Source: Oscillospiraceae bacterium (GTDB lineage Bacteria; Bacillota; Clostridia; Oscillospirales; Oscillospiraceae). From it: 64,000 nt of DNA. The stretch spans positions 62,001 to 126,000 of the forward strand of contig SVLH01000001.1 in NCBI GenBank assembly GCA_015068025.1, written 5' to 3'. Shown here in pieces: positions 55,373 through 59,133 of this stretch (within the stretch, counting starts at the first letter, position 1; every line of letters begins with the position of its first letter). The translations under genes were made by a program, and so were the position numbers. The notes beneath the pieces are model-generated. The model was given only the letters and a program-made list of their open reading frames with translations. It did not search any database and had not been told where the DNA came from.

Positions 55373-56395
55373 ATGTACAGTTTCCGAAATGATTATAGCG
55401 AGGGTGTCCACCCGAAAGTGCTGCAAGCGCTGACTGACACCAATCTGGAACAAAGCGTCGGCTATGGTATGGATCCCCGCTGCGATACCGCCCGCGCCAC
55501 CATCCGCCGCCTGTGCAGCGCCCCCAACGCCGATGTTCACTTCCTGGTAGGCGGCACCCAGACCAACCTGATTGTCATCGAATCTCTGCTGCGCCCCTAC
55601 GAGGCGGTCATCGCCGCCCATACCGGCCATGTCAACGTCCACGAGACAGGTGCCATCGAAGCCACCGGTCACAAGGTCTGCACCGTCTACGCCCCTGACG
55701 GCAAGCTGACGCCGGAACTGGTGGAATCCGTAGTAAAGGGTCACAGCAGCGAACATATGGTCCTCCCCCGTCTGGTCTACATTTCTGACACTACGGAACT
55801 CGGAACCATCTACACCAAGGCGGAGCTGACCGCCCTGCGTGCGTGCTGCGACAAGCACGGCCTTTTCCTGTTCCTGGATGGCGCCCGTCTCGGTTCTGCC
55901 CTCACTTCCCCCGAAAACGACCTGACGCTGGCCGACCTCGCCGCCCTGACAGACGCCTTCTACATCGGCGGCACAAAAAACGGCGCCCTGTTCGGCGAAG
56001 CACTCATCATGAATGCCGCCAACGACCACTTCCGCTGGCACATGAAGCAGCGCGGCGCCATGCTGGCCAAGGGTCGCCTGCTGGGCATTCAGTTCCAGAC
56101 CCTGCTGGAGGACGGGCTCTATTTCGACATCGCCCGTCACGCCAACGAAATGGCCTTCCGCCTGCGCGACGGCATCGCCGCGCTGGGCTATCCCTTCCCT
56201 GTGCCCTCCCCCTCCAATCAGCAGTTCCCCGTTCTGCCCAACACGGTAGTTCGTCAGCTGAACGAGATGGGCTACGAGTTCGAGATCGACCACGCCGATG
56301 GCAACGACCACACCTGCGTGCGTTTCGTCACCAGCTGGGCGACGCCCGAAGCCGCCATCGACCGCTTCCTGCAGGATCTGGCAGCCTGTAAATAA
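55373..56395 (+). CDS. ltaE: Low-specificity threonine aldolase (PLP enzyme)
   Basis: 340-residue fold-type I PLP enzyme that splits threonine or allo-threonine into glycine and acetaldehyde. N-terminal FRNDYSEGVHPKVLQAL; substrate/cofactor region HVNVHETGAIEATGHK; Asp for the pyridine nitrogen in LDGARLGSAL; PLP lysine in FYIGGTKNGALFGEA. L- versus allo-specificity cannot be told. Weak ribosome-binding site (AGCAGG). Confidence 0.92.
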   Translation: MYSFRNDYSEGVHPKVLQALTDTNLEQSVGYGMDPRCDTARATIRRLCSAPNADVHFLVGGTQTNLIVIESLLRPYEAVIAAHTGHVNVHETGAIEATGHKVCTVYAPDGKLTPELVESVVKGHSSEHMVLPRLVYISDTTELGTIYTKAELTALRACCDKHGLFLFLDGARLGSALTSPENDLTLADLAALTDAFYIGGTKNGALFGEALIMNAANDHFRWHMKQRGAMLAKGRLLGIQFQTLLEDGLYFDIARHANEMAFRLRDGIAALGYPFPVPSPSNQQFPVLPNTVVRQLNEMGYEFEIDHADGNDHTCVRFVTSWATPEAAIDRFLQDLAACK

Positions 56396-56426: not shown

Positions 56427-56657
56427 ATGAAATGTCCGTATTGTTCAAAAGAATTGGCTCTCGGCTATCTCTATAACGGCGCCCAGCCCGTACAATGGAT
56501 TCCTGACGGCAAAAAACCTTCCTACCTCAAATTTTCCGTTTCCGAAAACGCAATAGAACTACAAAACAAGTTTTCGTTTTTCAAGGTTGGAGGATATGCC
56601 GCCGAGGCGTATTATTGTGACGCCTGCCATATCGTGATTGCCAAAACGCAAAGATAA
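56427..56657 (+). CDS. Small zinc-ribbon protein (DUF6487/PF20097-like)
   Basis: 76-residue protein with N-terminal MKCPYCSKELALGYL and C-terminal YYCDACHIVIAKT, two CxxC pairs forming one zinc ribbon with a central beta-rich part containing LYNGAQPVQWIPDG. Common in Clostridia; function unknown. RBS AAAAGGAG. A hairpin terminator follows. Confidence 0.78.
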   Translation: MKCPYCSKELALGYLYNGAQPVQWIPDGKKPSYLKFSVSENAIELQNKFSFFKVGGYAAEAYYCDACHIVIAKTQR

Positions 56658-56783: not shown

Positions 56784-56797
56784 CGAAAATTTGTTCG
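56784..56797 (+). promoter_or_regulatory. LexA (SOS) box 1, one mismatch
   Basis: CGAAAATTTGTTCG against CGAAC-N4-GTTCG. It ends 8 bp upstream of the -35 box. Confidence 0.5.
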
Positions 56798-56805
56798 ATT
56801 TTCTA

Positions 56806-56834
56806 TTGACAAGAACGTTTGTTCGAGTTATAGT
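56806..56834 (+). promoter_or_regulatory. SOS-type promoter of the repair operon
   Basis: TTGACA, 17-bp spacer, TATAGT. The spacer itself contains a perfect LexA box, so occupancy would block RNA polymerase. Confidence 0.85.
56812..56825 (+). promoter_or_regulatory. LexA (SOS) box 2, perfect core
   Basis: AGAACGTTTGTTCG: exact GAAC-N4-GTTC, lying between -35 and -10. Confidence 0.85.
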
Positions 56835-56840
56835 GTCAAT

Positions 56841-56854
56841 AGAACAAAAGTTCG
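56841..56854 (+). promoter_or_regulatory. LexA (SOS) box 3, perfect core
   Basis: AGAACAAAAGTTCG: exact GAAC-N4-GTTC at the predicted transcription start. Box centres are 28 and 29 bp apart. Confidence 0.8.
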
Positions 56855-56871
56855 ACAAGGAGGATTTTACA

Positions 56872-56994
56872 ATGACTTGGAGCTTCTTTTTCATGCTGCT
56901 GGGCGTTTCCCTGATGACCGCGCAGATCTTTCGGCTGGTCGATGCCATTGAACAGCCTCCCCGCCGCTCCCGTCGGCGCGCCATGGCTCGCTGA
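56872..56994 (+). CDS. SOS-controlled 40-residue membrane peptide, unknown
   Basis: 40-residue ORF with a strong ribosome-binding site (AAGGAGG, 56858-56864) and its own SOS-type promoter. Residues 3-24 (WSFFFMLLGVSLMTAQIFRLV) form one membrane helix; the tail is strongly basic (PPRRSRRRAMAR). It is the first gene of the LexA-controlled operon. Small single-helix SOS peptides are known as division inhibitors or toxins (B. subtilis YneA, E. coli TisB), but no similarity to either was seen; the role is open. Confidence 0.7.
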   Translation: MTWSFFFMLLGVSLMTAQIFRLVDAIEQPPRRSRRRAMAR

Positions 56995-57003
56995 AACAGT
57001 GCC

Positions 57004-58272
57004 ATGGACATTCTGGAAAAACTGACGATCCTGACAGACGCCGCAAAATATGATGCGGCCTGTACTTCCAGCGGCGGGAACCGCACACCTAAAAAAGGAT
57101 TTCTTGGCAACACATCTTCCTCTATGGCAGGGTGTTGCCATTCCTTTTCTGCGGACGGGCGCTGCGTGACGCTGCTGAAAGTCTTGATGACGAATTGCTG
57201 CATCTACGACTGCAAGTATTGCGTCAACCGCCGCAGCAACGATACCCGCCGCACCATGTTCACCCCGGAGGAACTGGCCGACCTGACCATCAGTTTCTAT
57301 CGACGGAACTATATCGAAGGACTGTTCCTATCCTCCGGTGTGTTTCGCTCACCGGACTACACCACAGAACTGATGATCCGCGCCCTGCGCCTTTTGCGCG
57401 AGCAGTACCGCTTCAACGGATACATCCATGCCAAGGCGATCCCGGGCACTTCGCCGGAACTGGTGGAGCAGCTGGGTCTTCTTTCCGACCGGCTCAGCGT
57501 CAACATCGAATTGCCCTCCGAAGCAGGTTTGACCGCTCTGGCGCCCGACAAGACCAAAAGCGCCATCCTTGCGCCCATGCGCCAGATCCAGGCCAGAAAT
57601 CACCAGAACAAGGAGGAACTGGTCAAGTACCGTCATGCACCGAAATTTGCACCGGCCGGACAGAGCACTCAGCTGATCGTCGGCGCAACACCGGATTCCG
57701 ACTTCCACATCCTGCGCCTGACACAGGGCCTCTATGACCGCTACCACTTGAAGCGCGTGTTCTATTCCGCCTATGTGCCGGTGGTGGAGCACGCCCTGCT
57801 GCCCTCCAAAGACGTAAAACCCCCTCTGCTGCGGGAACATCGCCTGTATCAGGCAGACTGGCTGCTGCGCTTCTATCACTTCCGTGCAGAGGAGCTGCTG
57901 GATCAGGCGCATCAGAACTTCGACACGCGGGTCGACCCCAAATGCAGCTGGGCGCTGGCGCATCTTGACCGTTTCCCTGTGGAAATCAACGCCGCAGATT
58001 ACGAAACCCTGCTGCGGATCCCCGGCGTGGGCGTCACCTCCGCCAAGAGGATCCTTGCCGCCCGCCGTGCCGGCAGACTGCAGGTCGACGATTTGAAAAA
58101 ACTGGGCGTTGTCATGAAGCGCGCTCAATACTTCCTCACCGCTTCCGGAAAAATGGCCGAGGGTCTGCGCTTCACACCGGACAGTCTCCTGCAAAATCTG
58201 ATCGCGGCAGAACGGTCTCTGCTGCCGCAACCGGAAACACAACAGCTGTCCCTGTTTGACAGCGCCGGATAG
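57004..58272 (+). CDS. Putative DNA modification/repair radical SAM protein (TIGR03916 family)
   Basis: 422-residue radical SAM protein of a family named for its link with a uracil-DNA-glycosylase-like partner. Cluster cysteines are in NCCIYDCKYCVN (CxxxCxxC, about 64-72). GLFLSSGVF and the NIELPSEAGL strand complete the SAM barrel. The C-terminal helix-hairpin-helix (LLRIPGVGVTSAKRILAARR) is a DNA-binding unit. The reaction is not known. The ATG is 9 bp after the 40-residue ORF and lacks a good ribosome-binding site, suggesting coupling. The partner follows 12 bp later. Confidence 0.9.
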   Translation: MDILEKLTILTDAAKYDAACTSSGGNRTPKKGFLGNTSSSMAGCCHSFSADGRCVTLLKVLMTNCCIYDCKYCVNRRSNDTRRTMFTPEELADLTISFYRRNYIEGLFLSSGVFRSPDYTTELMIRALRLLREQYRFNGYIHAKAIPGTSPELVEQLGLLSDRLSVNIELPSEAGLTALAPDKTKSAILAPMRQIQARNHQNKEELVKYRHAPKFAPAGQSTQLIVGATPDSDFHILRLTQGLYDRYHLKRVFYSAYVPVVEHALLPSKDVKPPLLREHRLYQADWLLRFYHFRAEELLDQAHQNFDTRVDPKCSWALAHLDRFPVEINAADYETLLRIPGVGVTSAKRILAARRAGRLQVDDLKKLGVVMKRAQYFLTASGKMAEGLRFTPDSLLQNLIAAERSLLPQPETQQLSLFDSAG

Positions 58273-58284
58273 AAAGGTTCCTCT

Positions 58285-59133
58285 ATGCCCGAAATGGTAT
58301 ACTATTACGATGGCAGCTTCGACGGATTTCTCTGCTGCATTTTCGAAAGCTATGCCAACAAAGAAGTCCTCACCGCGATCTATCGCGATGAGGACGATAT
58401 TCCCACACTATTTGCATCCCGCACAATTTTAACAGATAAAAACCACGCAAATCGCGTATTAAGAAAGATTGTAAAGTGTTCTTCCTTTGCAGCGGAACTG
58501 CTGCAAAAAGGCTTCCTCACCTGCTTGCCCGAGAAAGAAATGCACCTGTATCGGCTGGTGGTGAAACTACTGGAGGAAGGCTGCGGCTTTCTGCGCAACT
58601 TTTCCGACGAAACCTTATACCCGATAGCCGCCGCAGTCCGCCACCTGAACGGCGAAGCCCATTTGCTGAAGGGCTTTGTTCGCTTTTCCGAACTGGGCGG
58701 CGTTCTGGGTGGTGAGATTGAGCCGAAAAACAGGGTGCTTCCTTTGCTGCGCAGCCACTTCTGCGCCCGCTATCAGGGGGAATCCTTCTTCCTGTATGAC
58801 CGCACCCACAAGGAGGCGCTGTTCTATTCCGCGGGCAAGGCGGTGATCTGTCCGCTGGAGTCCTTTCAAATGGCTCCTCCGGACGAAGCAGAGGCCAGAT
58901 ACCGTCTCCTTTGGAAGCGGTTTTACGACACCATCGCCATTAAGGAACGTGAGAACCCCCGCTGCCGGATAACCAATATGCCAAAACGCTATTGGAATAC
59001 CATGACCGAATTCCAGAATGAGGATTGCTTCAAAGCTCAAAACTCTCCCGCAGCCGCATCAGCCCCCGCCGTTCCAGCCGCGACACCTGCACCTGCGATA
59101 CCCCCAGCACACGAGCCGTCTGCTCCTGCGTAA
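58285..59133 (+). CDS. Putative DNA repair protein, DUF4130/TIGR03915 family
   Basis: 282-residue protein starting YYYDGSFDGFLCCIFESYANKE, with LVRFSELGG-like core (FVRFSELGGVLGGEIEPKN) and ending its family domain near RYWNTMTEFQN (about 245). The family is linked to uracil-DNA glycosylases and always found with the radical SAM gene above. The last 30 residues (NSPAAASAPAVP... rich in Ala and Pro) are encoded over the 3' end of the opposite sigF and are probably not part of the fold. RBS AGAAAGG. Confidence 0.88.
   Translation: MPEMVYYYDGSFDGFLCCIFESYANKEVLTAIYRDEDDIPTLFASRTILTDKNHANRVLRKIVKCSSFAAELLQKGFLTCLPEKEMHLYRLVVKLLEEGCGFLRNFSDETLYPIAAAVRHLNGEAHLLKGFVRFSELGGVLGGEIEPKNRVLPLLRSHFCARYQGESFFLYDRTHKEALFYSAGKAVICPLESFQMAPPDEAEARYRLLWKRFYDTIAIKERENPRCRITNMPKRYWNTMTEFQNEDCFKAQNSPAAASAPAVPAATPAPAIPPAHEPSAPA

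Follow-up and report, generated by a model that had tools for sequence, protein, structure and literature searches.

An operon of Oscillospiraceae under predicted LexA control joins a radical SAM/DUF4130 gene pair to a membrane micropeptide

A 64,000-nucleotide stretch of an Oscillospiraceae metagenome-assembled genome (MAG; assembly GCA_015068025.1, contig SVLH01000001.1, positions 62,001 to 126,000 of the forward strand; hereafter the window) carries a three-gene operon encoding a 40-residue membrane micropeptide, a radical SAM protein of family TIGR03916 and its DUF4130-type partner. We propose, with a probability of roughly 0.78, that this is a LexA-repressed SOS operon combining a DNA repair pair with a membrane checkpoint peptide. 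The proposal is built on an array of three LexA-type boxes at the operon promoter, on the retention of these boxes in relatives and in much of the Bacillota, and on their agreement with the boxes at lexA itself.

Operators at the promoter and their conservation

The MAG (1.54 Mb, 71% complete) was placed through its named relatives in the Oscillibacter/Dysosmobacter group of the Oscillospiraceae. A preliminary description of the operon, made from the DNA letters, had reported a TTGACA-17-TATAGT promoter accompanied by three GAAC-N4-GTTC sites, two perfect and one with a single mismatch, at centre distances of 28-29 bp, and direct reading confirmed this to the base, the centres being separated by 28 and 29 bp (Table 1). 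The core of each box is A/T-rich, and GA follows directly after each. The strict form CGAAC-N4-GTTCG has a single occurrence in the MAG, which lies elsewhere. Open reading frames (ORFs) and profile matches also agreed with the gene content described, namely a 40-residue peptide, a radical SAM protein with a helix-hairpin-helix (HhH) and a DUF4130-type partner. The genes are tightly packed, with gaps of 9 nt between peptide and radical SAM genes and 12 nt between radical SAM and DUF4130 genes.

Lone sites with at most one mismatch are at background in the window (30 versus 24.3 expected), and across the MAG the perfect motif is not enriched (24 versus 25 for the reversed pattern). Lone sites thus carry no meaning, and weight falls on position, clustering and conservation. 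Among 150 dinucleotide-shuffled versions of the window, none had three sites within 70 bp; the cluster is beyond chance. In whole-genome counts for a genome rated 100% complete (G014), box-like sites look depleted, GAACNWWNGTTY occurring 7 times forward and 7 times reverse and its reversed pattern 35 and 23 times. G045 shows no such depletion (15 and 18 versus 15 and 20 reversed). The G014 genome holds 10 distinct GAACNWWNGTTY sites, 2 of them at the promoter of the radical SAM operon. Among 30 other box-like sites (22 in G045, 8 in G014), 23 overlap an ORF of at least 100 residues and one sits 134 bp ahead of an ORF that by eye is DNA-polymerase-I-like (L337); inspection of the ORF starts near these 30 sites, which included no family search, recognized no uvr gene.

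Absence of the boxes from close relatives that keep the operon had been named in the preliminary description as an outcome that would speak against it. The boxes are kept: 79 of 80 named Oscillospiraceae loci have, within 400 bp, a site that is perfect or one mismatch off, the exception being L056. When a box is defined as perfect or with one terminal mismatch, 69 of the 80 relatives have one within 300 bp (shuffle mean 1.49, maximum 6) and 46 have a perfect one (shuffle mean 0.40, maximum 3), as compared with 51 and 7, respectively, of the 2742 control windows drawn from these loci. Pairs of sites 27-37 bp apart were found in 1 of the 2742 control windows and triples in none, whereas the 54 loci with a machine-called peptide ORF have a triple in 26 cases and a pair in 25 more. 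Where the peptide is missing, a site starts 28-44 bp upstream of the radical SAM gene in 22 of 23 loci. An ungapped stack of 32 promoters, selected for spaced boxes and anchored on box 3, retains the -35 element, boxes 2 and 3 and part of the -10 element at 70% or better amid variable surrounding DNA. Among cultured relatives, Oscillibacter valericigenes Sjm18-20 (L047) and O. ruminantium GH1 (L042) retain the operon layout.

Table 1. Promoter elements and genes of the operon, in window coordinates
Feature	Position	Strand	Remarks
LexA box 1, GAAAATTTGTTC	56785-56796	+	One mismatch; upstream of -35; least conserved box in the 32-promoter stack
-35 element, TTGACA	56806-56811	+	Read directly; at least 70% conserved in the 32-promoter ungapped stack
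LexA box 2, GAACGTTTGTTC	56813-56824	+	Perfect; inside the promoter spacer
-10 element, TATAGT	56829-56834	+	Read directly; 17-bp spacer from -35; partly conserved in the stack
LexA box 3, GAACAAAAGTTC	56842-56853	+	Perfect; just past -10, at the expected transcription start; best conserved (anchor of the stack)
Ribosome-binding site, AAGGAGG	56857-56863	+	Identified by eye
Micropeptide, 40 residues	56872-56994	+	One hydrophobic segment, basic tail, net charge +5
TIGR03916 radical SAM protein, 422 residues	57004-58272	+	Profile matches; C-terminal HhH
TIGR03915/DUF4130 partner, 282 residues	58285-59133	+	Profile matches; TIGR03915 match stops at residue 243

At its 3' end the DUF4130 gene overlaps the terminal part of a sigF-like gene on the opposite strand (window 59030-59133). 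On the 5' side of the promoter lie genes for a DUF6487 protein (56427-56657) and a beta-eliminating lyase resembling threonine aldolase (55373-56395), neither with an evident link to SOS.

LexA across the Bacillota and in the host genus

Of 398 Bacillota genomes, 91 have a TIGR03916 match above the cut-off. Upstream regions were read in 89, comprising 88 of the 90 other genomes above the cut-off plus G253, which falls below it; G249 and G352 were left out. The search for GAAC-N4-GTTC upstream of TIGR03916 genes in many genomes that the preliminary description proposed proved positive, with a box within 150 bp of the gene in 52 of 89 (shuffle mean 0.56, maximum 3) and a perfect one in 19 of 89 (shuffles 0.12). 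Control windows at -600 to -300 gave 5 and 2 of 89, respectively, and in-gene windows gave a box in 2 of 534. Such a distribution over much of the Bacillota ties the pair to DNA damage. A LexA search covered 80 of these genomes, nine being omitted as members of genera already represented, and gave matches above cut-off in 76; G316, with only a sub-cut-off match, was classed as LexA-less. The box accompanies the pair in 49 of 76 LexA-bearing genomes versus none of the 4 judged LexA-less (Fisher p 0.02). Because 27 LexA-bearing genomes have no box, the control appears common rather than universal. For 30 of the 80, those returned by searches, the genome's own lexA promoter was read too. Here both lexA and the radical SAM gene had the box in 24 genomes, neither in 3, lexA only in 3 and the radical SAM gene only in none. 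This genome-by-genome agreement with lexA's own operator points to LexA over another repressor.

Within the genus, LexA was matched at E<=0.001 in 50 of 61 genomes (the MAG counted among the 61), and in 44 of these the E value was no higher than 2.2e-18. Promoters of lexA were read for 30 of these 44 strong matches, again those returned by searches, and 25 carry a box, mostly GAACAAATGTTT. SOS control of the operon, as put forward in the preliminary description, is strongly backed by comparison, through operators of the GAAC-N4-GTTY type overlapping the promoter, boxes kept in relatives and the same type of box at lexA within the genus. No box was found in any of 27 recA promoters of the genus (L290-L316; for two, the upstream sequence was shorter than 350 bp), and recA seems to have left the LexA regulon there, which makes the regulon unusual. 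With recA devoid of a box and the operon usually bearing two or three spaced sites, the operon is a leading candidate LexA target in the Oscillibacter group.

The MAG, at 71% completeness, gave no LexA match. Its nearest relative found, G021, whose radical SAM protein is 95% identical, has LexA, with a boxed lexA promoter (L169). In G021, lexA sits between a sigma-factor gene, which we take to be sigK-like, and a secG-like gene. The MAG counterpart of this stretch is a strong match at the sigma-factor side only (81% over bases 1-646), and both lexA and secG are absent from the two MAG stretches read for them. A short DNA match on MAG contig C10 was considered as secG and rejected. That the lexA-secG stretch has no real counterpart and that the adjoining gene is broken off suggest an assembly gap, and the missing lexA is probably such a gap and not a loss. 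The sigK-like gene of the MAG ends abruptly after residues ARCIEN (G000:C33:2717-3061, L369), and a recombinase-like ORF (947-1867) lies between it and the contig end. This arrangement resembles the sigK intervening elements that occur in other spore formers.

The radical SAM/DUF4130 pair and the micropeptide

The radical SAM protein matches TIGR03916 over 415 of 415 positions (E 2e-195, 649.7 bits, cut-off 343.5) and the Pfam Radical_SAM model above its cut-off. HhH profiles match residues 326-357 at E 2.2e-5, below the Pfam cut-off, and ComEA matches the radical SAM family profile at E 5.7e-6. Cysteines C66, C70 and C73, together with C20 and C54, are invariant in 76 aligned rows. The structure model (predicted local distance difference test, pLDDT, 89.6) is a generic radical SAM barrel plus HhH. 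Spore photoproduct lyase was not among 29 PDB sequence matches (to E 1), nor among the 50 matches listed in each of two further searches; absence from such listings does not count against a relationship.

The partner matches TIGR03915 (E 3.2e-62, 210.4 bits, cut-off 112.25) and DUF4130 (E 3.8e-44, 150.7 bits, cut-off 27). Its model (pLDDT 90.5) weakly resembles a DHH/RecJ-like fold. The DHH catalytic motif is absent from the consensus and invariant columns of 76 partner rows, where the invariant residues are R133, R162, R222, N224, P233 and E242; among solved structures related to DUF4130 by sequence, the best match had E 0.17. The last ~39 residues fall outside the family profile and are modeled with lower confidence. 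The partner lies downstream of the radical SAM gene in 69 of 80 loci of named relatives and 83 of 89 Bacillota loci. In one relative a gene for a membrane protein, by eye presumably TraX-like, stands between the two (L060:7401-8282), and the partner is similarly distant in L061, L063, L064, L069 and L077.

Glycosylase models in the family libraries matched none of the three products. With this result, the weakly DHH/RecJ-like partner and the generic radical SAM barrel with HhH, the earlier suggestion of direct reversal combined with base excision finds no support. Full-text literature searches met no substrate for the pair. An anti-phage function was also considered and set aside, the three products having no PADLOC defence match. 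A role of the pair in repair or damage tolerance is the likelier case.

The micropeptide, left uninterpreted in the preliminary description, is the newest part of the operon. An automated ORF rule called it in 54 of the 80 named loci and inspection by eye added L026, L038 and L079, for 57 of 80. An N-terminal hydrophobic segment is followed by a basic tail. The ratio of nonsynonymous to synonymous differences per site (pN/pS) runs from 0.20 for the closest pairs to 0.46 for the most distant class; by these sequence comparisons, the micropeptide is conserved and under purifying selection. The window peptide matched no Pfam, NCBIfam or PADLOC model, and 34 aligned members gave weak matches only, the best at E 0.0014 in PHROGs and at E 0.038 in Pfam.

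In a profile search, 10 of 200 family genomes had a match at E<=0.001. Beyond the genus, six of the seven best matches directly precede a radical SAM gene, four with three spaced sites (L354, L355, L356, L359) and two with two (L353, L357); the seventh, L358, has neither the gene nor spaced sites. A further copy, L360, also stands ahead of a radical SAM gene, with one site. Peptide-like ORFs in L358, L361, L362 and L363 directly follow an ORF of 91-110 residues (alike by eye), away from any radical SAM gene. A recombinase-like ORF near that of L358 suggests mobile DNA, and a mobile element is a possible source of the micropeptide. The weaker match L364 has neither the 91-110-residue ORF nor a recombinase-like one; the weaker matches read elsewhere omit G060:C60.

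Peptide and operator array go together. Arrayed boxes were found at 51 of 54 machine-called peptide loci versus 6 of 26 others, and at 54 of 57 versus 3 of 23 after the by-eye additions, the sequences being related, so that p-values are a guide only, and the boxes of L014 lying beyond the 300 bp scanned. The array may serve to keep the peptide silent.

Model, alternatives and known systems

In the mechanism we propose, LexA dimers on the three operators, above -35, between -35 and -10 and at the start site, would block RNA polymerase until RecA filaments trigger LexA self-cleavage and derepress the operon upon DNA damage. The first product would be a single-span membrane micropeptide, the second a radical SAM enzyme bound to DNA via its C-terminal HhH, and the third a nucleotide- or DNA-binding DUF4130 partner, perhaps DHH/RecJ-like. 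The pair would repair or modify a damaged base by radical chemistry while the peptide holds division or membrane activity during repair, and the operator array would silence a peptide that may be toxic. Of these parts, LexA control, deduced from sequence comparison, is very likely; a checkpoint or growth-arrest role for the peptide is tentative and somewhat short of even odds. Bolder, and in our judgment doubtful, is the idea that the micropeptide founds a new Oscillospiraceae family of SOS-induced membrane peptides that arrest division or membrane activity during DNA repair by the co-transcribed pair, the array having co-evolved for silencing and a mobile-element peptide maybe being the source.

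Operators of a repressor other than LexA would account for a MAG that lacks a LexA match and for a genus whose recA has no box. This seems highly improbable given that 27 of 30 genomes are concordant with lexA's own operator, that none of the 4 genomes judged LexA-less has the box, and that the missing lexA of the MAG looks like an assembly gap. The peptide ORF, in turn, might be a leader only, its translation opening the radical SAM start by translational coupling and its product having no function. Its stop lies 9 nt upstream of the radical SAM start in the window and, in a subset of relatives, ~22 nt inside the radical SAM gene, as coupling would have it. Yet the constraint evident from pN/pS is on amino acids and not on the frame alone, the hydrophobic segment and basic tail are retained in other genera, and peptide-like ORFs are also found apart from the radical SAM gene, all of which make a mere leader unlikely.

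It is likewise unlikely that the pair modifies or edits DNA, in SOS mutagenesis or another stress, rather than repairing it. We know of no substrate, which leaves room for such a role, but LexA control and the HhH domain suit repair at least equally, and no PADLOC defence model fits the three products. The bolder reading of a new peptide family, if true, would place checkpoint and repair enzyme on one transcript. The micropeptide is a small, directly testable SOS checkpoint candidate in common gut Clostridia, and the box distribution shows which cultured species and which stress suit study of the widespread TIGR03916/DUF4130 pair.

LexA control of the pair is not new in kind. In the relevant portions of the paper, a like pair, CAC3343-CAC3344 of Clostridium acetobutylicum, is predicted to be under LexA control in work with footprinting and expression data; these portions mention no micropeptide or multiple-operator array, and the likeness is one of description (PMC3828012). 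Elsewhere, in the parts of the reports bearing on this subject, the Gram-positive core SOS regulon includes an unspecified radical SAM protein (PMC7739468), DUF4130 is tied to SplB-like radical SAM proteins and uracil glycosylases (PMC3765255), and another clostridium has GAAC-N4-GTTT boxes at both lexA and recA (PMC4234289). New to us within the literature searched are the breadth of the control in the Bacillota, the operator array and the conserved micropeptide. No report on LexA in Oscillospiraceae was among the matches listed in a full-text search, and the micropeptide was not met in the literature on SOS division inhibitors, the one peptide-directed literature search made. We take COG4277 to be the TIGR03916 protein. 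The COG1573-COG4277 (UDG-COG4277) operon is SOS-controlled in Bacteroidetes, with Verrucomicrobia and Alphaproteobacteria cited, in the section of the source concerned with it, and resembles the present pair in being an SOS-regulated two-gene unit (PMC8565304). It differs in having a uracil-DNA glycosylase (UDG) and other LexA motifs, the partner here being DUF4130/TIGR03915 with no UDG match.

The micropeptide has parallels among small SOS-induced membrane proteins. SidA is a small LexA-controlled SOS division inhibitor, and both SosA and SidA span the membrane once. YneA, as characterized in the pertinent part of its source, is small, LexA-controlled, made in SOS and endowed with a single membrane span, as is predicted for the micropeptide, but carries a LysM domain, unlike the model-free micropeptide (PMC13396833). 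SosA is an SOS-induced membrane inhibitor of cell division that is LexA-controlled, as the micropeptide operon is predicted to be (PMC6851548).
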